DNA from: a virus | Virus record (IMG/VR): IMGVR_UViG_3300006802_000032 | Span: 1 to 39,231 of that record | Strand: one strand, 5' to 3' | DNA length: 39,231 bases | Position numbers and translations under genes: made by a program | Part shown: positions 2,368 to 39,231 of the stretch, piece by piece | How the letters are laid out: every line of letters starts with the position of its first letter | Position numbering within the stretch: position 1 is the stretch's first letter | The notes under the pieces: generated by a model | Told to the model about the DNA's origin: nothing | The model's database searches: none | Seen by the model: the letters and a program-made list of their open reading frames with translations, nothing else

Positions 2368-3342
2368 ATGGCCTCTCCAAACTCGACCTTCACCGAAATG
2401 GTCACGACCACGATGCGCAAGCACAAGCGCAAGGTGGTCGATAACGTGACCAAGAACAACGCGCTTTTGACGCTTCTCAAAGAGCGCGGCAACATCAAGA
2501 CCGACGCCAGCGGAGGTTACGAGATCACCCTCCCGCTGAGCCACGCGGAAAACGCCACCTATCAGCGCTATTCAGGCTACGACACGATGAATATCGCGGC
2601 GTCTGACGTCCTGTCGGCGGCGAAATACGACTGGCAACAGGTGGCGCTGCATGTGACGGCTTCCGGCCGGGAGCTCCGCATGAACAACGGCGAGGAGCGC
2701 TTGATCAATCTGGTCAAGGCGCGCACTGAAGTTGCTTTTGCGACCGCCGCCAACAACATGAGCATCGACCTCTACTCGGACGGCGCTTTGACCAATCAGA
2801 TCGGCGGCCTCAAGCATATCATTCAGGCGGCCGGCACCGGCACGGTAGGCGGCATCAACTCGTCGACCTACACGTTCTGGAAAAACAAGTTCAACGAGAT
2901 CGCGGCCGGCGGCGGAACCACGGTAACGTTCGCCAACCTCAAGGCGGCCATGAACGCTCAATGGATGGCCCAGACGCGCGGCCAGGACAAGCCTGATCTG
3001 CTGGTGTCAACTCACGACCTGTTCGCGATCTACGAGAGCGGACTGCAGGATAACCAGCGCTATGGCGACGCCAAGCTCGGTTCGCTCGGGTTTGAAAGTC
3101 TAAAGTACAAGTCGGCGTCGATCATTTTCGACGACAACACCAATTTTGGCACCACGGACGAATTGGTCTACTTCCTGAATACCAAGCATCTCTATCTCAT
3201 GGAGCACCCGGACGCGCGCTGGACCGAGGATGATGAGAAGGTGCCTGTAAATCAGGATGCCGTTGTTGTGCCCATCTATTGGATGGGTCAGCTGTGCTGC
3301 TCGAATCGGTCCCTGCAGGGCCGTATCCACGACCTCGCCTAA
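2368..3342 (+). CDS. Major capsid protein (HK97-fold type expected)
   Basis: A 324-residue protein following the scaffold gene. It begins with a helical N-arm (TFTEMVTTTMRKHKRKVV, then NNALLTLLKERG). Next comes a beta-rich part with ITLPLS at about 53, then a mixed domain with the helix RLINLVKARTEVAF near 110-125. The C-terminal segment contains FLNTKHLYLMEHPDARWTED and ends with the strand VVVPIYWMGQLCCSNRSLQG. This order (N-arm, E-loop, spine helix, P-domain and hydrophobic final strand) suits the HK97 fold of podovirus capsids. A homologous copy of the N-arm recurs at 35771-36031. The spacing after the scaffold stop is 12 bases. Confidence 0.88.
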   Translation: MASPNSTFTEMVTTTMRKHKRKVVDNVTKNNALLTLLKERGNIKTDASGGYEITLPLSHAENATYQRYSGYDTMNIAASDVLSAAKYDWQQVALHVTASGRELRMNNGEERLINLVKARTEVAFATAANNMSIDLYSDGALTNQIGGLKHIIQAAGTGTVGGINSSTYTFWKNKFNEIAAGGGTTVTFANLKAAMNAQWMAQTRGQDKPDLLVSTHDLFAIYESGLQDNQRYGDAKLGSLGFESLKYKSASIIFDDNTNFGTTDELVYFLNTKHLYLMEHPDARWTEDDEKVPVNQDAVVVPIYWMGQLCCSNRSLQGRIHDLA

Positions 3343-18464: not shown

Positions 18465-18486
18465 GAGGCGGCCTTTCTCGTGTTGC

Positions 18487-18580
18487 GCCCGCATTGGTGC
18501 TTCGCTTCGGAGCGTGATTGAGCCGGGAAAGTCCCTAACCGTCAACGCTGACGGGACCGAAGCGGAGCCCCTATGCGGGC
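18487..18580 (+). repeat. 94-bp structured element, copy 1 (inverted relative to copy 2)
   Basis: Reads the same as the reverse complement of 18960-19053 except for position 6 and a central stretch of about 18 bases. The first 24 bases pair with the last 24 (21 Watson-Crick pairs plus one G-U in this orientation). Inside are a GGGA/TCCC pair and an apical hairpin CCGTCA-ACGC-TGACGG. The element lies between two minus-strand genes just after an SD-like GGAGGC. It could be a small mobile palindromic element or a structured RNA. Confidence 0.85.
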
Positions 18581-18595
18581 GGCCTCCGATGGAAT

Positions 18596-18928
18596 CTATT
18601 CCGTGCTCGTTACTTCGATCTTTGGGTGTGAGCCCTTTGGCTCTGGCTTCTTCTCAGCATTGAGCTTCATCGCCGCCGCAAGACCAGGGTGAGAAAGCAC
18701 TTCCGCAGCGCGCACGAACTCCATCTCATAGCCGTCTGGGTAGTGAGCCGCGTAGGTCTCGTGACGATCAGGTCTCGATCCAGGCGAGACGCCCAAATTT
18801 CCCGGCACAAATGCCTCGTGACTACACCAGTGCGAGCCCAAAACAGTTCCGTCCTCTGCCAGAGCAAGGGCAATTCCCTCACCGCCACCGACGACGTTGC
18901 TGAAACAGTAAATCTTGGGTTTGCTCAT
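18596..18928 (-). CDS. Conserved phage hypothetical protein bracketed by structured repeats
   Basis: A 110-residue protein beginning MSKPKIYCFSNVVGGGEG from ATG 18928, with TGGAGG as ribosome site; five upstream in-frame residues are not needed. The part IALALAEDGTVLGSHWCSHEAF and then RPDRHETYAAHYPDGYEMEF is a pattern I recognise from small proteins of rhizobial phages whose function is unknown. The last 20 residues are polar. The gene lies exactly between the two inverted 94-bp elements, so recombination between them would invert it. Confidence 0.7.
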   Translation of the reverse strand: MSKPKIYCFSNVVGGGEGIALALAEDGTVLGSHWCSHEAFVPGNLGVSPGSRPDRHETYAAHYPDGYEMEFVRAAEVLSHPGLAAAMKLNAEKKPEPKGSHPKIEVTSTE

Positions 18929-18959
18929 CTTAGCGGCCTCCAATCAGTTTCTAAAATCC

Positions 18960-19053
18960 GCCCGCATAGGGGCTCCGCTTCGGTCACGCCACATATGGGC
19001 GCTAGGGACTTTCCCGGCTCAATCACGCTCCGAAGCGAAGCACCAATACGGGC
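18960..19053 (-). repeat. 94-bp structured element, copy 2
   Basis: The inverted partner of 18487-18580. The outer arms are nearly identical to copy 1, but the apex differs in sequence and still pairs (CGCC with GGCG around CATATGT in this orientation). The flank on the 3' genomic side carries GGCGGCCTCCGAT in both copies. It is placed between the stop of the gene at 19063 and the ribosome site of the gene at 18928. Confidence 0.85.
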
Positions 19054-19062
19054 GGCCTCCGA

Positions 19063-19272: not shown

Positions 19273-19434
19273 CTCACCGGCCTCCTGTACGTCGAGGCCA
19301 GTCGTTAACGGCCCCTTGATCCTTGATCGTGTATAGCACGTTATTCCTGCGTTTGCGAATTGTCAAGCGCAGTGACCTGTGTTATCACACTGCCAACAGG
19401 ATCGCGCTTGACACTAAGAGCATTCGTTCGGGAC
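19273..19434. promoter_or_regulatory. Divergent control region with dyad operator candidates
   Basis: Between the leftward gene at 19272 and the rightward gene at 19435. On the + strand TTGTCA (19360-19365), a 16-base spacer and TTATCA (19382-19387) form a modest promoter. On the minus strand TTGACA overlaps the same site, but its -10 is unclear; TATACA at 19335-19330 is too far away at 25 bases. A dyad TGTG-TTAT-CACA (19378-19389), flanked by CAGTG and CACTG (19370-19392), overlaps the + strand -10 and could be an operator. Confidence 0.5.
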
Positions 19435-20037
19435 ATGCCGGGCAACACCGCCGCATCGCAGATGGCACGAGCGACCAAGTTGGGCGCGACCGTGATCTAT
19501 GAGGCCGACCGCTCGCTGCCCGACAAGCGCGATGCGTGGCTGCGCTCGCTGCGCCCCAATGACACCGCCGTGATCGACAAGCTGGCGCTGCTGGCGTCGC
19601 ATCCGCCCAAGCAAGGCGTGCGCCCGTCAGCCGACTTCGCCGGCGCCCTGACGCGGTTGCTGCTTGCCGGCTGCCGCATCGTCGAGGCGTCGACCGGCGT
19701 GACCAGCGACGACAAAGATGCGCTGGCAGCAGCGGTTATTGCGGCAGCGGACCAGATCGCGAGCGGGCGCCGGCTCACACCTCGACGTGCGCGCGAGATC
19801 GGTCGAGCAGGGGTCGAAGCGGCGATCGAGCGGAGCCCCGTGCGCCGCTGGACCTCGCCGGAAATGAGTGCACAGCGCAAGCGCTACGGTGCGATCTGGC
19901 GCGACAGCCAGTACACTAACGACGACGATGCGGCGGAGGCGGTCAACGCCGCGCTGCGCGAGGACGGCAAGCCAGAGCTAGGATCGCCGTCGACCATGAG
20001 GCGGATATTCGAGCGGCGCAGGCCGCGTCAACGATAG
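19435..20037 (+). CDS. Resolvase-like regulatory or DNA-binding protein without full catalytic site
   Basis: A 200-residue protein. ATG 19435 (MPGNTAASQMARATKLGATV) is preferred over the TTG 75 bases upstream, which overlaps the promoter. The N-terminal 110 residues (GATVIYEADRSLPDKRDAWL, ADFAGALTRLLLAGCRIVEA, STGVTSDDKDALAAAV) resemble the serine-resolvase fold, but I cannot place the catalytic serine. The C-terminal part has a helix-turn-helix-like stretch (RRLTPRRAREIGRAGVEA) and a basic end (RRIFERRRPRQR). It could regulate the flanking divergent promoter or act in recombination; both are inference. Confidence 0.6.
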   Translation: MPGNTAASQMARATKLGATVIYEADRSLPDKRDAWLRSLRPNDTAVIDKLALLASHPPKQGVRPSADFAGALTRLLLAGCRIVEASTGVTSDDKDALAAAVIAAADQIASGRRLTPRRAREIGRAGVEAAIERSPVRRWTSPEMSAQRKRYGAIWRDSQYTNDDDAAEAVNAALREDGKPELGSPSTMRRIFERRRPRQR

Positions 20038-25490: not shown

Positions 25491-25644
25491 GCTTTTCCCC
25501 GTGCACTTTCCAAACCCAATACTTGATCTGATCACGCGATATTACGGCAGGAAACTCCTTCCGGCGCCGACGCATCAGCACAACGATGTCATCGACGCCA
25601 TAGCCCTGGATCGCGTACATAACTATGGTCGTGTGATAGGTCAT
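25438..25644 (-). CDS. Small helix-turn-helix-like protein
   Basis: A 68-residue protein starting MTYHTTIVMYAIQGYGVDDI at ATG 25644, overlapping the RecT stop by four bases. The pattern of a short helix, a turn and a second helix (GVDDIVVLMRRRRKEFPAVI then SRDQIKYWVWKVHGE) is that of a small helix-turn-helix domain, and the C-terminus is basic. A DNA-binding role is likely. The last 53 bases overlap the start of the H-NS-like gene. Confidence 0.6.
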   Translation of the reverse strand: MTYHTTIVMYAIQGYGVDDIVVLMRRRRKEFPAVISRDQIKYWVWKVHGEKHAGQHEHKAASRVERPR

Positions 25645-26414
25645 TCGGTCGCCGATTTCTCCCGCTTGGCTTCTTCAATCATCTCGATTGCATTCGTGCG
25701 CCCGTCCTCATCCATCGCCATGATGGCCGTGGCGTATTCCTTCTCGACTTTAGCGGCTGGCTTGCTCTGCAACGCCTTCTCGATATCCCGCAGCACGGCG
25801 GCCTGATCGTCGGCGGTCGGCTCGTCTGGAATGTCGGGAAGGTCTAGCGGCGTCGGCCTGGCCGGTGTGATGTCTTTCGGCTCGCCTTGCCATTGGTCGA
25901 ACTCGTCGCGGTCCATGAGACCGGCAAAGCCGAACGCATAGCGCGCCGCCTGCGTCAGCGCGCGGTGGCGCATCATGCGCTTGGGCGAGGTCTTCCAGAC
26001 AGATCCACCAGCACGGCTGCACTCGTCGAAATACTCCGTCACCCGCATCTGGTGCTTGCGATCCTTGCGGTAGATGATGCAGGTGCAGGAAATCGGCTCG
26101 CCCGTGTCGGTCAGAGCGTCGATGAACTCGATTCCATCAAACTGCGGGTGCTCGTTGCACTTCTTCATCCAGCCGTCGACCGAGACAATCGGCTGAATGC
26201 CGTTGTTCTTCGTCCGCATGAAGTAGATTTCCTTCGTGAGCGGGTTCAACCCATGCTCACGGGCGACGAGACAGCAAGATACGAACTCCTCGTCGGTGTG
26301 GGGTGACGGCATCGCGACCTTGCGAAAGGTCACGATGAACGCCAGCGCGTCGAGCTTGTAGAAGCCGGCCAGTTCGCCAATTGCCGGCATCTGCGCGATG
26401 ATGTCGTTGCTCAT
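25641..26414 (-). CDS. RecT/Bet-type single-strand annealing protein
   Basis: A 257-residue protein of the phage Bet/RecT annealing family. The N-terminal 180 residues contain the family core: FVSCCLVAREHGLNPLTKEIYF, then QPIVSVDGWMKKCNEHPQFDG, then a strand-rich region with CTCIIYRKDRKHQMRVTEYF, and RMMRHRALTQAARYAFGFAGL. The tail is proline-rich and then helical. It pairs complementary single strands during recombination and replication of the phage genome. The usual partner exonuclease is not found in this window. It overlaps both adjacent genes by four bases. Confidence 0.85.
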   Translation of the reverse strand: MSNDIIAQMPAIGELAGFYKLDALAFIVTFRKVAMPSPHTDEEFVSCCLVAREHGLNPLTKEIYFMRTKNNGIQPIVSVDGWMKKCNEHPQFDGIEFIDALTDTGEPISCTCIIYRKDRKHQMRVTEYFDECSRAGGSVWKTSPKRMMRHRALTQAARYAFGFAGLMDRDEFDQWQGEPKDITPARPTPLDLPDIPDEPTADDQAAVLRDIEKALQSKPAAKVEKEYATAIMAMDEDGRTNAIEMIEEAKREKSATE

Positions 26415-27367
26415 ACCGCGACCTTCTCATCGAAGCTCCGCACGCCGGGCACTGTCGCGCCAGCTCGCGCTTGCGCAAACGCCACCTTTTCGACGGCAGC
26501 GCGCACGTCAGGATGCGTTTTGACGTGTGCTAGGGCGGCCTCGTAGTCGGCCAGATCGTAGCGGGTGATCGTGCGCAATCCGGCCTTCTTGCCACGTTGT
26601 CCGCCAGCGCTGACCTTGACATCGGCCGGCGCCACAAATACGGGCGCTTCAAGCGGCAGCGGCGGCTCGTCATTCGGCGCAGCGGCGGCAGCCTTTGCGG
26701 CTTCCTCCTGCTGGCGCTTGAACTCTGCCATGCGCCGTTCGTTTTCCTCGCGCGCCTTGCGTTCTGCTTCGGCCCGCGCCTTGGCTTCCTCGGCGGCCAG
26801 ATACTTCGACAGCGCATCACGCAACTTGTCGGCCGCAGCCTTGGCGTCATCGACGAGCGGCTTGTATTCCGCATTGATCTTGCGTTGTGCTTCTAGGTGC
26901 GGGCGCACCTTGGCATCGCGTTCGGTGTCCGCCTTCTTGCTCAGATCAAGCAGCTTGGCGCGATAGTTCGCAGCCATGTCGGCAGTCGTCTTATCGACGA
27001 TGCCGGTGGTGGTGAGCCACTGCAAAGCCTGATCGCGCGCTTCGCTGATTTCCTCGGCCAGCGTGAGATCGCCGGAGTTGTGCCCAATGGTCGGCACGTC
27101 GCCGGGCCATAGACCAGTGTCGAATGCGTGCTTGGCCGCATCCTTCGCGACGGGATTGCCGGCGCAATACGTCCAGATTTCATGCGCGTCGCGCACCTTA
27201 TCCGCGACACGACAGACGATCTCGCCGTCCTTTTCCCAGATCGCGACCGGCAGCCAAGGGCCATCCTTGCCGGCGCGCGTCTTGAAGTAGCCGGACTGCG
27301 GCTCGTTGACATTGATCGGCGGGTTCTTTCCTGCGAGCGCATCGCGCCACCATTGCCATTGATCCAT
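26411..27367 (-). CDS. Coiled-coil protein of the RecT operon, function unknown
   Basis: A 318-residue protein from ATG 27367 (MDQWQWWRDALAGKNPPINV). The first 70 residues have a beta-rich part with YFKTRAGKDGPWLPVAIWEK. A long coiled coil follows at about 110-230, rich in K, E, A and R (KADTERDAKVRPHLEAQRKI, EEAKARAEAERKAREENERR). The C-terminal domain (GLRTITRYDLADYEAALAHV to PGVRSFDEKVAV) resembles that of many RecT-operon proteins. It is common in rhizobial phages and may be a partner of the annealing protein. No catalytic residues can be named. Confidence 0.7.
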   Translation of the reverse strand: MDQWQWWRDALAGKNPPINVNEPQSGYFKTRAGKDGPWLPVAIWEKDGEIVCRVADKVRDAHEIWTYCAGNPVAKDAAKHAFDTGLWPGDVPTIGHNSGDLTLAEEISEARDQALQWLTTTGIVDKTTADMAANYRAKLLDLSKKADTERDAKVRPHLEAQRKINAEYKPLVDDAKAAADKLRDALSKYLAAEEAKARAEAERKAREENERRMAEFKRQQEEAAKAAAAAPNDEPPLPLEAPVFVAPADVKVSAGGQRGKKAGLRTITRYDLADYEAALAHVKTHPDVRAAVEKVAFAQARAGATVPGVRSFDEKVAV

Positions 27368-27444
27368 CACCAATCCCCCCAAGCCAGAGCCAGCACCGGA
27401 AGCGCCACGACACACAGCGCCATCACTGCAAATGTGATCATCAT
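27367..27444 (-). CDS. 25-residue membrane peptide coupled within the operon
   Basis: The ATG overlaps the upstream stop by four bases (ATGA) and the TGA overlaps the next ATG by one base (TGATG), so coupling is exact. The peptide (MMITFAVMALCVVALPVLAL...) is a single hydrophobic helix. It may only carry translation from one gene to the next or act as a small membrane protein. Confidence 0.6.
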   Translation of the reverse strand: MMITFAVMALCVVALPVLALAWGDW

Positions 27445-29199: not shown

Positions 29200-29349
29200 C
29201 CGGCCACGAGTGCAGCGGCCGGTGGGCAGGCTGTTTGGTAACTGCAGCCGGGCATGCCCGCCTCCAACGCCCACCGACCGCTGCCCTTTCATCGGGGGGT
29301 AGCTTCCTCCTTAGACTTGGGGGCCGGCTTCGGTCGGCCCTCCTTTAGG
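29200..29349 (+). ncRNA. Structured intergenic RNA element with terminator-like hairpin
   Basis: A 16-bp stem with one mismatch (29212-29227 with 29269-29284) encloses two hairpins: GGCTG/CAGCC (29229-29249) and CGGG-CATG-CCCG. An alternative stem CCGGCC/GGCCGG (29200-29222) uses part of the same arm. A GGGCCG/CGGCCC hairpin with a TCCTTT tail follows (29321-29346), just before the GcrA-like gene. On the minus strand the mismatch becomes U-G, so the direction of function is open. Confidence 0.55.
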
Positions 29350-29358
29350 ACCAAGTCA

Positions 29359-29706
29359 ATGATGACGGCCCCGAAACTGATCCGCAAGTTTCCGTCCCTC
29401 TCTGACGCTGAGTTGCAGGCGCGGTTCGGGGTCAGCATCAATGCGCTCCGCATCGCCAGATGGCGCCAAGAGAACTACGCCGCGAACCGTCAACAAGAAG
29501 AGGCAAGGCGTCGTCGCAACGGCATCCTGCCACGCGCCGAACGCTGGCGCCTGCAAAGCGAAGCGATATGGCCTGGCAAAGCCATAGCCATCCTAGAGAA
29601 GCACTGGGGCCGCAAGTCTGCGGCTGAAATCGCTGAATTAGTTGGAAAGTCGCGTAATGCGGTCATTGGCAAGGCCAATCGGCTTGGTTTGCCGCGTCTG
29701 AAATGA
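29359..29706 (+). CDS. GcrA-like DNA-binding regulator
   Basis: A 115-residue protein from ATG 29359, with TAGGA upstream; earlier in-frame ATG codons fall in the structured RNA. Residues 10-40 (SLSDAELQARFGVSINALRI) resemble a helix-turn-helix. The C-terminal part, about 72-115 (KAIAILEKHWGRKSAAEIAE, then SRNAVIGKANRLGLPRLK), matches the N-terminal DNA-binding domain of the alphaproteobacterial cell-cycle regulator GcrA. GcrA works with sigma-70 at promoters with methylated GANTC sites. The phage protein may divert that system to phage promoters. Confidence 0.72.
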   Translation: MMTAPKLIRKFPSLSDAELQARFGVSINALRIARWRQENYAANRQQEEARRRRNGILPRAERWRLQSEAIWPGKAIAILEKHWGRKSAAEIAELVGKSRNAVIGKANRLGLPRLK

Positions 29707-34212: not shown

Positions 34213-35184
34213 ATGCCACGCCGGACATGGTCTCAATGGGCGCAGTCGCGCTCAGCTCACGTTTGGGTAGGAGAAGGGGTTATCGCGTTTGCCCTCTGCT
34301 GCTTTGCGGTCTCGGCCTACTTCAACGCTCGCTATGCCGGCAGTCTCGGCCAAGACGATGCGATGCAGACGGCCATGAAGATCGCCGGGTTTAGCATCGC
34401 CGCCCTGCTCGCCCTGCTTGCCATCGGTAAGCATCTGATCGATACCGACAAGTTTCACGGCGTTAAGGCTAAGGCTCTGATCCTCGTGGCATGTCTGGCC
34501 GTAGTTGAAGTCTGGTCCGCGATGGGTTCCATCGTCACCGGCCGCAGCGATATGGTCGGTTCCCGCAAGATCGAAGCAACATCGGTTGCCAACGCAACGG
34601 CAGACCGAACGCGTTTGCAGGCCGAGCTTGCCAAGCTCAAATCAACCCCGCCAGCGGCCACGCTTCGCGCCCAGATCCAGGGTATGCAGGCCCAGACGTT
34701 CTACAAAGCCACGAACGCCTGCACCACGAACACAGGCCCATATAACAACTCATGCCGCCGATATGCCTCTGTCGCCGCCCAGCTCGGCACGGCAGAGCGC
34801 AAGGAAAGCCTAGAGGCGCAGCTTGCGGCGGCAACCGGCACCATCGCCCATGCCAAGGGCGCGGCGCAGTCCGGCGCTGATCCCCAATCGGCCGCCCTTG
34901 CCACAACGCTCGGATTCATGGGCATCATGGCGAGCCCTGACACTATCGGTCTGCTGGCCCCGCTCGGCATCGCCCTTGTTCTGATGCTTGCTGGCTGGTG
35001 GGGAATCGAGATCGGGTTCGCCATTCGCGGGATCGAACTCGTGGCCGGCGCTGCAAGACCCGCCGCCGCACTCAACGACAACGTGCGGCAGTTCCAGGCG
35101 CCATCGTCAACTTACAGCCCTCCGAATGGGCCACTGTCTCGCATCGAGTGGAGCGGGCAGACCAGCATAGCTAAGGTGGCATGA
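34213..35184 (+). CDS. Multi-pass membrane protein with periplasmic/cytoplasmic coiled coil
   Basis: A 323-residue protein with a CGGAGG site before ATG 34213. Transmembrane helices at about 20-38, 57-73, 86-106 and 245-268 (GVIAFALCCFAVSAYF, AGFSIAALLALLAIG, ALILVACLAVVEVW, LLAPLGIALVLMLAGWW). Between helices 3 and 4 lies a long soluble, partly coiled part (RTRLQAELAKLKSTPPAATL, ERKESLEAQLAAATGTIAHA) with three cysteines. I recognise the overall type from other rhizobial phages; no function is established. It might act in membrane take-over or exclusion. Confidence 0.65.
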   Translation: MPRRTWSQWAQSRSAHVWVGEGVIAFALCCFAVSAYFNARYAGSLGQDDAMQTAMKIAGFSIAALLALLAIGKHLIDTDKFHGVKAKALILVACLAVVEVWSAMGSIVTGRSDMVGSRKIEATSVANATADRTRLQAELAKLKSTPPAATLRAQIQGMQAQTFYKATNACTTNTGPYNNSCRRYASVAAQLGTAERKESLEAQLAAATGTIAHAKGAAQSGADPQSAALATTLGFMGIMASPDTIGLLAPLGIALVLMLAGWWGIEIGFAIRGIELVAGAARPAAALNDNVRQFQAPSSTYSPPNGPLSRIEWSGQTSIAKVA

Positions 35185-35429
35185 TGAGCCAGGACGCAAA
35201 GCTGCTTCCTATCGTCAAGGCGAAACTGGACAAGGCTAAGGGACTATCCGTTCTTATCGACGGTCCCCTATCCTTCTGCATGTGGGTCGCCGTGGCCACG
35301 CTCACGGCCATCTTCATTGCCACGGTCGCCAAAACAGCGGGGATTTATCCCAAGTGGATGATTATACCCACTGCGGAATACCTGCAACTGCTGTATGCTG
35401 CAGGGGTGGTGTATCTGCTGAGGCATTGA
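35181..35429 (+). CDS. Small membrane protein with two helices
   Basis: An 82-residue protein overlapping the previous stop (ATGA). The hydrophobic segments are LSFCMWVAVATLTAIFIATV and YLQLLYAAGVVYLL. The last 12 codons and stop lie in the first copy of the 39-bp repeat that also carries the next gene's ribosome site. The function is unknown. Confidence 0.6.
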   Translation: MMSQDAKLLPIVKAKLDKAKGLSVLIDGPLSFCMWVAVATLTAIFIATVAKTAGIYPKWMIIPTAEYLQLLYAAGVVYLLRH

Positions 35430-35433
35430 GATG
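35395..35433 (+). repeat. 39-bp direct repeat, copy 1
   Basis: Identical to 35735-35773. It contains the end of the membrane-protein gene, a GAGG ribosome site and the ATG of the helix-turn-helix gene. The two copies are 340 bp apart, start to start. Confidence 0.9.
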
Positions 35434-35733
35434 ATTCCTATCCACAAGACAAGGACGAACTACATTGCGGCATCGTCTCGCCGAGACGAAGTTCTTCATC
35501 GAAGGCTATGTGGCGAAACTCAGTCTAGTATCGCCAAAAGCCTTGGCGTTTCGGTCGGCCGTGTTCGGCAGATGGAAGCGTTAGCCTTCAAGAGGTGGTA
35601 TGATGTGTGTCACGAAGTGTCATGCGCCATTGATAGCCTTGAAAATGAGGCGGGTGCTTTGTCTCGGATGGAAGCCGCGATAGCAAGCGGTTCATTCAAT
35701 CCTGACCGCAGACGGCAAGAGAAGCATAAGTGA
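35431..35733 (+). CDS. Sigma-70 region-4-like helix-turn-helix protein
   Basis: A 100-residue protein. Residues 20-57 (EVLHRRLCGETQSSIAKSLG, then VSVGRVRQMEALAFKRW) match region 4 of sigma-70 factors: the VS..RVRQ.E..A...W pattern is that of the recognition helix for -35 elements. The rest is helical, with no region 2, so it is not a full sigma factor. It could be a phage regulator acting on late or host promoters. The gene is bounded exactly by two perfect 39-bp repeats. Confidence 0.72.
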   Translation: MIPIHKTRTNYIAASSRRDEVLHRRLCGETQSSIAKSLGVSVGRVRQMEALAFKRWYDVCHEVSCAIDSLENEAGALSRMEAAIASGSFNPDRRRQEKHK

Positions 35734-35734
35734 C

Positions 35735-35773
35735 ATGCTGCAGGGGTGGTGTATCTGCTGAGGCATTGAGATG
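35735..35773 (+). repeat. 39-bp direct repeat, copy 2
   Basis: Perfect copy of 35395-35433. It places a GAGG ribosome site and ATG in front of the Tat-like gene at 35771. The two copies have different bases on both sides, so the repeat is exactly 39 bp. Confidence 0.9.
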
Positions 35774-36031
35774 GACGTTTCCCGCCGTGGTCTGTTGACC
35801 GGCCTGGCTTCGCTTCTCGCGGCGCCTGCTATTGTCCGCGTCACCAGCTTAATGCCGGTGAAGGCGTTGGGTCCGCCTGAATTGGTTCTGCCGTACACCT
35901 ACGGTGAAAATGAAACATTCTCACAGTTGGTAACGCAGACAATGAGGCGTCATCGGAGCCTGGTTATAGCTAACATCACTGAAAACAACGCCCTGCTGAG
36001 CATGCTCAAAGAGCGCAACCGGTTGACCTAG
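35771..36031 (+). CDS. Tat-like leader fused to a major-capsid N-terminal fragment
   Basis: An 86-residue protein with two parts. Residues 1-31 look like a twin-arginine signal: SRRGLLTG with R5-R6, a hydrophobic run (LASLLAAPAIV) and APAIVRVTSLMPVKA, a start that recurs in small phage proteins. Residues 46-86 (ENETFSQLVTQTMRRHRSLV, NITENNALLSMLKER) align with residues 5-43 of the major capsid protein (about 21 identities in 38 positions), then stop. At DNA level the two copies are divergent, so this is not a recent duplication. It may be a remnant, an assembly factor or a secreted peptide. Confidence 0.7.
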   Translation: MDVSRRGLLTGLASLLAAPAIVRVTSLMPVKALGPPELVLPYTYGENETFSQLVTQTMRRHRSLVIANITENNALLSMLKERNRLT

Positions 36032-36068: not shown

Positions 36069-36386
36069 GTGCCGCGCGGTGGTGCAAGAGCAGGTGCAGG
36101 ACGCAAGAAGGGCGCCAAGTCCAAAATGAGCGAGCTTCGGCAACGGATCGCAACCATGGCCGTGCTGGAAGCCGAAATCACGCCGTTGCACGTCATGCTG
36201 CAGGCCATGGCCAACGCCTGGAACCGGGGCGACCAAGACAAAGCGGCAGCATTCGCTAAAGAGGCAGCGCCCTACGTTCACCCGCGCCTCGCCAACATCG
36301 AGCACAAGGGCGATCCTGAAAACCCGCTTGAGACCGTCACACGGATCGAACTCGTTGCGCCTACGCCAGGGCATGGCAATCGATGA
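36069..36386 (+). CDS. Putative terminase small subunit
   Basis: A 105-residue protein from GTG 36069 with CGGAGA upstream. The start (MPRGGARAGAGRKKGAKSKM) has the G-R-K-rich DNA-binding tail typical of small terminase-type proteins. The centre is helical (VMLQAMANAWNRGDQDKAAA), with APYVHPRLANIEHKGDPE near 74-91. The small subunit recognises the packaging site and stimulates the large subunit, and it lies just upstream of it. The packaging site is not identified. Confidence 0.7.
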   Translation: MPRGGARAGAGRKKGAKSKMSELRQRIATMAVLEAEITPLHVMLQAMANAWNRGDQDKAAAFAKEAAPYVHPRLANIEHKGDPENPLETVTRIELVAPTPGHGNR

Positions 36387-36661
36387 GATCGACCGAAGAA
36401 TGGGCTGAGCGCATCGCTGATTTTGTAAACAAATTACCCACTAGGCCACGCGCTTTAGTGGTGCCGCCTGCTGATTTTGAAGCGTTCAAAGTAACGGTGC
36501 CCTTAATGTGGCGATACTACCTTACCGCAGACCCTCGGGAGAACCTGCTACTCACCATTCTTGGTCCGCGAATGATCATTGTGAAGGGGCCGCCAGATCA
36601 AACAGAATGGGTAGCAGAGACAGAATCGGCGGCCGAACCGCATGGCAACCGTTCAAGTTGA
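36383..36661 (+). CDS. Small hypothetical protein between the terminase subunits
   Basis: A 92-residue protein that overlaps the small-subunit stop (ATGA) and the large-subunit start by 20 bases. Its base composition is more AT-rich than that of its neighbours (for example TTTTGTAAACAAATTACCCA in the first third), suggesting later arrival. It has segments RALVVPPADFEAFKVTVPLM and NLLLTILGPRMIIVKGPP. The function is unknown; its place suggests a link to packaging. Confidence 0.6.
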   Translation: MRSTEEWAERIADFVNKLPTRPRALVVPPADFEAFKVTVPLMWRYYLTADPRENLLLTILGPRMIIVKGPPDQTEWVAETESAAEPHGNRSS

Positions 36662-38003: not shown

Positions 38004-39231
38004 TTCTGAAACGGCTGGCGAAATGGATAGCGAAGAGGAAGCGCTACGTCGCGGCCTCCCGCTGCCGGCCGTCTTTCTCAAGCACATAGAGAGGCAGAAG
38101 AAAGACGAGGAGCCATGGCGCAAGGCGGCAAAGAACGCGATTGCCGTTTATGAAGCGGGCGAACCGGACAAAACGTCGGAAGCGCCGTCATTCAACATCC
38201 TCCATTCCAACATCGAGACGACCGTTCCCGCGCTCTACAACTCGACGCCGATCCCTGACATCCGCCGACGGTTCGGCGATGCCGATGGTGTGGCGAAAGT
38301 TGCCGTTGATGTGATCGAACGGGGGCTGTCCTACTCTGTCGACGAGTATGATTTTGACGGCACAATGCGCGAAGCAACGCGGGACGGGGAACTTGCCGGT
38401 CGCGGTACGGCGCGCGTGCGTTACGAGCCTCAAATGATGCAAGGGCCAGATGGTCCGGTCATCGGCAGCCAGACTGTCACTTGCGAGCATGTGATCTGGG
38501 ACAAGTGGGGCCACGGGCCGGCGCGGTCTTGGGAAGAGGTGCCGTGGGTCTACTTTGAGCACGACTACACGACAGACGACTTGCTCAAGATCGGCGTGTC
38601 TCAGGAGCGTATTGACCGGCTGTCGCTCAACGACCAGCATGAAGAGGACAAGTCTGACAGCGCGTCAGGTGTCGAGAACAAGGGCATCCTCAAAACCTGC
38701 CGGGTTTACGAGGTCTGGGACAAGCGCCGCCGCGCTGTGCTGTTTATCGCCGATCAGGACAAGAATGAGTTTCTGGCCGTCAAGCCGGACCCATTGAAGC
38801 TCAAGCAGTTCTTCCCGATGCCCGAAGCGTTGCAGCCGCTTCGCAAGCGGGCGGACATCACGCCAATATGCCCCTATGAGGTTTACAAGCCTCTGGTCGA
38901 GGAACTAGATCGCGTCACCAAGCGCATTCGGTCGCTGGTCAACCAACTTCGCGTGCGCGGCCTGTATGACAAGCGCTTGGCGGAGGACTTCGAGCGGTTG
39001 CGGTTCTGCGAGGATGGCCAGTATGAACCGGCCAACGACGCATCCGCGTTCGCGTCTGGCGGCGGCGGTCTAGAGAAGGCCATTGCACACTGGCCGATGC
39101 AAGAGACAATCGCCGCGTTGCAGCAGCTTTACCAGCAGCGCGAGCAGGTCAAGCAAACGATTTACGAGGTCACGGGTCTATCTGACGTGCTTCGTGGCGC
39201 GACAAACCCCAATGAAACGTTGGGTGCGCAG
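37996..39231 (+). CDS. Portal protein, N-terminal part (gene continues at base 1)
   Basis: The start ATG 37996 overlaps the terminase stop. The first 371 codons run to base 39108 and the frame continues at base 1 (to 933), giving 681 residues. The part here has an acidic start (MADSETAGEMDSEEEALRRG), SFNILHSNIETTVPALYNST near 66-85, and a clip/wing portion ending KRIRSLVNQLRVRGLYDKRL. These match podovirus portals. It has no stop codon inside the window because the contig is opened here. Confidence 0.88.
   Translation, partial: MADSETAGEMDSEEEALRRGLPLPAVFLKHIERQKKDEEPWRKAAKNAIAVYEAGEPDKTSEAPSFNILHSNIETTVPALYNSTPIPDIRRRFGDADGVAKVAVDVIERGLSYSVDEYDFDGTMREATRDGELAGRGTARVRYEPQMMQGPDGPVIGSQTVTCEHVIWDKWGHGPARSWEEVPWVYFEHDYTTDDLLKIGVSQERIDRLSLNDQHEEDKSDSASGVENKGILKTCRVYEVWDKRRRAVLFIADQDKNEFLAVKPDPLKLKQFFPMPEALQPLRKRADITPICPYEVYKPLVEELDRVTKRIRSLVNQLRVRGLYDKRLAEDFERLRFCEDGQYEPANDASAFASGGGGLEKAIAHWPMQETIAALQQLYQQREQVKQTIYEVTGLSDVLRGATNPNETLGAQ
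39109..39231. repeat. Terminal direct repeat, right copy
   Basis: Identical to bases 1-123. One of the two copies must be removed to represent the circular molecule. Confidence 0.95.

Follow-up and report, generated by a model that had tools for sequence, protein, structure and literature searches.

The locus described here raises the question of whether a small regulatory gene that lies between two perfect direct repeats, shortly upstream of the terminase genes of an uncultured phage, is an element made to excise or the trace of a gene that was gained once. The window, i.e. the whole stretch of DNA that was analysed, is the 39,231-base virus record IMGVR_UViG_3300006802_000032, whose identical 123-bp ends (1-123 and 39109-39231) give it the look of a circular contig. 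Based on the sequence of this window, it had been proposed that the gene in question, encoding a helix-turn-helix (HTH) protein, forms an excisable cassette. We give a probability of roughly 70% to a different reading, according to which the locus represents a recent gene insertion in the phage and not a dedicated mobile cassette. The HTH gene between its repeats is most likely the scar of this insertion, which could be lost cleanly again.

The two copies of the repeat (Table 1) are identical at 39/39 positions and are spaced by 340 bp from start to start. When the 123-bp overlap of the contig ends is set aside, they represent the longest exact repeat of the entire genome, and their length is far beyond chance, since the longest repeats in genomes simulated by an order-3 Markov model (n=30) measured 14-19 bp each. 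Outside the repeat edges the matches fall off abruptly, with 11/30 identical positions on the left and 9/30 on the right. The repeat originates from the 3' end of the 82-aa gene, of which it comprises 35 nt including the stop codon TGA (35427-35429), followed by a G and an ATG; the ribosome site GAGG is situated inside the repeat 7 nt 5' of this ATG. The HTH ORF takes its start from copy 1 and ends with a stop codon (35731-35733) one base 5' of copy 2, which in turn provides the start of the following 86-aa ORF. When the flanks were joined by a script and 340 bp thereby removed, the 82-aa and the 86-aa proteins both remained unchanged. Hence, the original prediction was correct with regard to the perfect 39-bp repeats, their make-up from upstream gene end, ribosome site and start codon, and, in silico, the intact junction that recombination between the copies would leave.

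Table 1. Features of the repeat-bounded locus and of the phage's putative recombination genes (positions in the window).
Feature	Position	Strand	Basis and remarks
Bet/RecT-like single-strand annealing protein	25641..26414	-	Pfam RecT 5.2e-26; phrog_252 2e-59
ORF beside annealing protein, PHROG-annotated exonuclease	26411..27415	-	phrog_10477 E 2.9e-19, residues 120-334
82-aa membrane-protein-like gene	35181..35429	+	hydrophobic stretch by eye; 81% identical in L003; without Pfam family
Direct repeat copy 1	35395..35433	+	last 35 nt of 82-aa gene, G, ATG of HTH ORF
HTH ORF, 100 aa, sigma-70 region 4-like, long C-terminal helix	35431..35733	+	Pfam PF04545
340-bp unit (HTH ORF body and one repeat copy)	35434..35773	+	would be deleted or amplified by inter-copy recombination; in silico flank joining
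Direct repeat copy 2	35735..35773	+	identical to copy 1; gives GAGG ribosome site and ATG to next ORF
86-aa ORF	35771..36031	+	twin-arginine-like N-terminus joined to capsid-protein N-arm-like C-terminus
Terminase small-subunit-like gene, right flank of variable slot	36069..36386	+	phrog_15261 E 4.5e-16, without stated function

The description of the HTH gene as sigma-region-4-like holds as well, because its product passed the Pfam threshold for Sigma70_r4 (28.8 bits against a cut-off of 24.1 bits, E 8.8e-7). In a structural model predicted from the single sequence only (mean pLDDT 81.4), the N-terminus is ill-defined and the remainder comprises a compact HTH and a long helix. Structure searches returned only HTH proteins of a generic kind (LuxR-type, KorA, sigma region 4), all at E >= 0.001, which fit a small DNA-binding protein without naming its function. 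The protein is probably a small DNA-binding regulator and not a full sigma factor, and we infer that it acts as such. At the sensitivity used, relatives of the HTH ORF were found neither in viral contigs nor in phages, plasmids or genome contigs, whereby the scans of the contig collections were seeded by exact 8-residue peptides, which distant relatives would escape. With a GC content of 0.515 and a GC3 of 0.515 the HTH ORF deviates from the gene of the large terminase subunit (TerL; GC 0.591, GC3 0.756). Composition alone is only a weak sign of acquisition, because another ORF of the region (36383-36661) is also low in GC3 (0.495). PADLOC found no anti-phage system and Rfam no RNA element.

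The genomic context was compared among TerL-related loci, of which 356 were confirmed and 80 kept in addition to the phage's own locus; by hand count, the sequence upstream of TerL measures 1.5 kb or more in 60 of these 80 loci. The 82-aa gene is encoded in a single one of the 80 loci (L003) and the HTH gene in none of them. When the upstream protein of 323 aa served as query, L003 was again the only result, and searches for the 82-aa gene, which was found in L003 alone, returned no match in phages, plasmids and genome contigs (in the contigs, two weak patterns gave 209 stretches, 0 of them confirmed). L003, whose TerL is 90% identical, is thus the only relative found that spans the site. A further locus, L002, belongs to the same phage (99.98% identity, 2 mismatches in 9432 bp) and begins at 36569, i.e. 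to the right of the site. In L004 (TerL 77% identical), the 82-aa gene is missing and another ORF, of 56 aa, precedes the small-subunit-like gene. In L003, the repeat is present as a single copy with 33/39 identical positions (6/39 differ) and the HTH gene is absent, which shows the latter to be dispensable in that lineage. However, L003 also lacks the 86-aa ORF; only approximately 80 nt separate its repeat from the terminase small-subunit-like gene, and the slot holds a 12-codon ORF in place of both genes. Homology to L003 stops exactly at the ATG of the repeat and is picked up again at approximately 36017-36029, so that the left flank is shared up to the ATG, whereas the right flank is shared only from there on and not from the repeat end. 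The expected single-repeat arrangement in a relative was therefore found in part: the repeat is single in L003 and the HTH gene absent, yet, with the downstream gene missing too, L003 does not represent the predicted empty site. A true empty site, with the 82-aa gene directly followed by the 86-aa ORF, was not found among the relatives searched. Taken together, the alignments portray the stretch before the terminase genes as a variable slot in this phage group.

The second gene of this slot had been named Tat-like, which is justified by the appearance of its N-terminus only. The twin-arginine-like look is by eye, no Tat model gave a significant match (TIGR02811, E 0.13), and the C-terminal part, residues 47-85 (35909-36025), aligns at 54% identity with positions 5-43 of the major head protein encoded by the phage itself (ORF 2368-3342; phrog_9953, E 9e-86). 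Judged from this alignment, the ORF is a chimera that ends in a capsid N-arm, and it may represent a leftover fragment or a peptide that interferes with the capsid; relatives of it were found neither in viral contigs nor in phages. Its chimeric nature indicates that at least two pieces of foreign DNA have probably entered the slot. The gene at the right flank of the slot is 52% identical in L003 and precedes TerL with one small ORF between them. Its tentative reading as terminase small subunit comes from this position and from weak matches (phrog_641, E 0.15).

The comparison with L003 also provides an estimate of age and direction. At the divergence from L003, the chance of observing 0/39 differences between the two copies would be 0.0015 when the repeat itself is used as reference, or 2e-5 when the rest of the gene is used, and the 95% upper bound for the divergence between the copies is 7.4%. 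The absence of differences between the copies, compared to the 6/39 differences to L003, favours a duplication younger than the L003 split, and this is probably the order of events. A recent gain of the HTH gene is hence the favoured direction. Our main reservation is that gene conversion between the copies could hold an older duplication identical. Such conversion would also be required if the history were one of loss, namely if a common ancestor carried the HTH gene together with the second ORF and both disappeared in L003, as the identity of the copies despite the 6/39 changes in L003 would otherwise not be expected. L003 does keep the ATG and the 12-codon ORF, followed by a stretch alignable to the end of the 86-aa ORF, and the authors who described a comparable insert in the mycobacteriophage LRRHood likewise could not exclude loss (PMC3029335). 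Nevertheless, recombination between the repeats would leave the second ORF in place and thus cannot alone give the state seen in L003, which makes a history of loss improbable.

Recent insertion, in the form that we prefer, would have started from an ancestor in which the 82-aa gene ran directly into another small gene via a stop-start overlap, TGA-G-ATG. The HTH gene would then have inserted at that start codon, recently in the lineage, and the insertion would have placed a second copy of the 3' end of the 82-aa gene, together with its ribosome site and the ATG, downstream of the insert. Such a route could be, for example, an exchange out of register with a closely related phage in which the HTH gene occupies the same start codon. 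The searches gave no donor in which the 82-aa and the HTH genes are neighbours, so that the route of gain is not reconstructed. The insertion is supported by the absence of the insert and the homology break at the ATG in L003. Moreover, the HTH gene is compositionally off and was found nowhere else searched, as is expected of an acquired gene. Paralogous duplication of the HTH ORF and the next ORF was ruled out, because the two proteins do not align; the two genes are unrelated and do not go back to a simple gene duplication. What speaks against insertion is that one relative only is available at the site, and this one is without two genes instead of one. Each of the two small genes begins with the same translation-start module, and both are probably covered by an upstream transcript, because the promoter scan revealed nothing resembling a sigma-70 promoter on the coding strand of the region; the HTH gene would then be translated from this transcript via translational coupling.

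Once present, the 340-bp unit would be passively lost or tandemly amplified at some low rate. According to PMC3945230, pairing requires at least 31-34 bp with RecA and 23-27 bp with Red-beta. The 39-bp repeat exceeds these lengths and the phage has its own Bet/RecT-like protein, so passive loss or amplification is to be expected. This putative annealing protein represents a candidate agent for gain and loss between short repeats and would be enough for a passive explanation; for the neighboring PHROG-annotated exonuclease ORF, Pfam gave no exonuclease family. The order of events, the route and the loss rate are what we infer, and no deletion rate is claimed. In this passive sense the term excisable is plausible, because the geometry permits a clean deletion. 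Not confirmed was the further meaning of a cassette, as neither a recombinase within the 340 bp, inverted-repeat ends or a hairpin nor another genome with the HTH gene was found.

It could be argued that the phage makes active use of this geometry, i.e. that deletion and regain serve to switch the HTH gene in the population and that the repeats are selected for that. The perfect repeats, the clean junction in silico, the own annealing protein and a repeat length above the pairing minima quoted in PMC3945230 are all compatible with such a cassette. We consider it unlikely, since a single-copy variant of the same phage was not seen (L002 does not reach the site), the exact 39-mer occurs in no other IMG/VR viral contig searched, a collection from which near-identical records were possibly left out, and the record assembled as one contig in the two-copy state; furthermore, recency already explains the identity of the copies. 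Little credence is given to the idea that the stop-ribosome-site-start module is a working switch, in which annealing of the copies by the Bet/RecT-like protein during replication would yield bursts whose genomes contain no HTH unit, a single one or more. If it were true, a regulator would be varied in the slot before the terminase genes without any site-specific recombinase.

The two-copy state could also be due to an assembly artefact, in which a repeat copy and its neighbour were misjoined, and the other contig of the same phage indeed stops short of the site. The MEGAHIT word list in PMC6646334 has 123 bases as its largest word. If such a list was used here, which the length of the terminal overlap would suggest, 123-base words span a 39-bp copy plus unique sequence on both sides. 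The contig closes by its 123-bp end overlap, and the HTH ORF is intact between a start inside one repeat and a stop just before the next. A misjoin is hence most improbable.

Integrases of genomic islands use gene ends as attachment sites, and the duplication of att restores the gene end at one side. The repeat resembles such att duplications in being a gene 3' end restored on one side, with a single copy in L003, which could be taken as a hint to a site-specific mini-element that is moved in trans by an integrase. However, there is no recombinase inside the 340 bp and no att-like site, the inverted repeats of the region do not bound the unit, the HTH gene was not found at any second location, and both repeat copies are the allele of this phage itself. 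The check for recombinases by Pfam and PHROG covered the unit and part of the phage's other ORFs; a 225-aa ORF (19360-20037) looks faintly resolvase-like by eye and is without Pfam or PHROG match. A recombinase supplied by the host might also act on the repeat. Overall, a mini-element is very unlikely. The 225-aa ORF lies near an inverted repeat (18486-18582 and 18958-19054) with 97-nt arms, 89% complementary and 375 nt apart, among short ORFs, to which a 34-nt direct repeat at 18557 and 19030 is related; the region 18486-19054 is a possible small mobile or invertible piece. Elsewhere in the genome, a 150-aa ORF (29254-29706) carries a GcrA-type domain (Pfam, E 1.6e-6), which presumably hints at an alphaproteobacterial host.

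Several known classes of small phage or cassette elements were compared with the locus. Integron attC sites possess a hairpin with the core motif GTTRRRY. An attC integron cassette was rejected, because the repeat folds no better than shuffled sequences (z -0.92 and -0.09 for the two strands); inspection by eye revealed no GTT in either strand. Morons are autonomous transcription units with their own promoter and terminator, which does not match a locus lacking a promoter-like site on the coding strand and having terminator-like sites near the shuffled number (3 compared to a mean of 1.6, sd 1.3). PeSL stands for promoter plus stem-loop. PeSL regulatory cassettes are similar in being short repeated regulatory modules around gained small genes, but differ in view of the folding of the repeat in our case and of the coding strand, on which no promoter was found; such cassettes of T4-like phages are mentioned in PMC4503421. 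PMC3556154, in the part relevant here, deals with terminal repeats only. The ultra-small mobile elements of mycobacteriophages (MPME) are 439 bp long, carry an inverted repeat at the left and at the right end, bring 6 additional bp to the target and are found with identical sequence at several sites (PMC3029335). With 340 bp the insert found here has a similar size in a phage genome; an MPME-like element was nevertheless rejected, since no inverted pair exists at the unit's two ends and the HTH gene is without relatives elsewhere searched.

In our assessment, the insert of LRRHood may be regarded as a near-exact published precedent, and the present case would be of the same kind in another phage group. 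LRRHood, a member of mycobacteriophage subcluster C1, carries a 1.35-kb insert with the HTH repressor gene 44 between 29-bp direct repeats, whereas its relatives have a single repeat placed right at a gene's 3' end; the authors weigh gain and loss, and the gain was not reconstructable (PMC3029335). Both cases share short perfect direct repeats, two in the carrier and one in the relative, the location at a gene 3' end and a DNA-binding regulator as cargo. For the phage studied here, this is reflected in edge repeats identical at 39/39 positions and in the insert-free relative L003 with one copy, in which, however, the downstream ORF is missing. The LRRHood insert differs by its four-gene cargo and by the known donor of the repressor, which has 99% DNA identity to Bxb1 gene 69 (PMC3029335). 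Moreover, its empty site exists in closely related phages, whereas here the cargo is one ORF and the sole relative is without the second gene too.

A parallel closer to the phage came from the 80 other loci, in which a search for exact repeats (minimum length 25 bp, within 3 kb) gave 12 pairs. Among them is a perfect 43-bp repeat in L009 at 2603 and 2985, i.e. 382 bp apart, which contains a ribosome site and an ATG and precedes TerL by approximately 1 kb. The sequences of L009 and of L012, a close relative, are almost the same downstream, but their similarity ends just 5' of that ATG. The loci L008-L012 have tandem small paralogous genes with an MTDWIE-type start upstream of TerL, and the number of these genes varies among close relatives. 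The likeness to our locus consists in a start-codon repeat in a small-gene array upstream of the terminase genes. The difference is that the duplicated genes in L009 are paralogous, which makes tandem duplication the likely source there, whereas the two ORFs here are unrelated. Even so, breakpoints at this position of related phages are seen to coincide with start-codon repeats; should the doubtful switch outlined above exist, those of L008-L012 at the same place would make the slot a recurrent hotspot.

Gene gain of this type is an ordinary way in which phages acquire genes, and no new class of mobile elements is opened by it. That the copies are identical places the event in the recent past, and the pattern known from LRRHood appears again in a different phage group which has its own annealing protein. 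A simple and testable prediction follows, namely deletion or amplification of 340 bp. Hence, the locus offers a snapshot of how phages may gain small genes with their neighbours undisturbed, in which the duplicated piece is exactly the unit that restarts translation.
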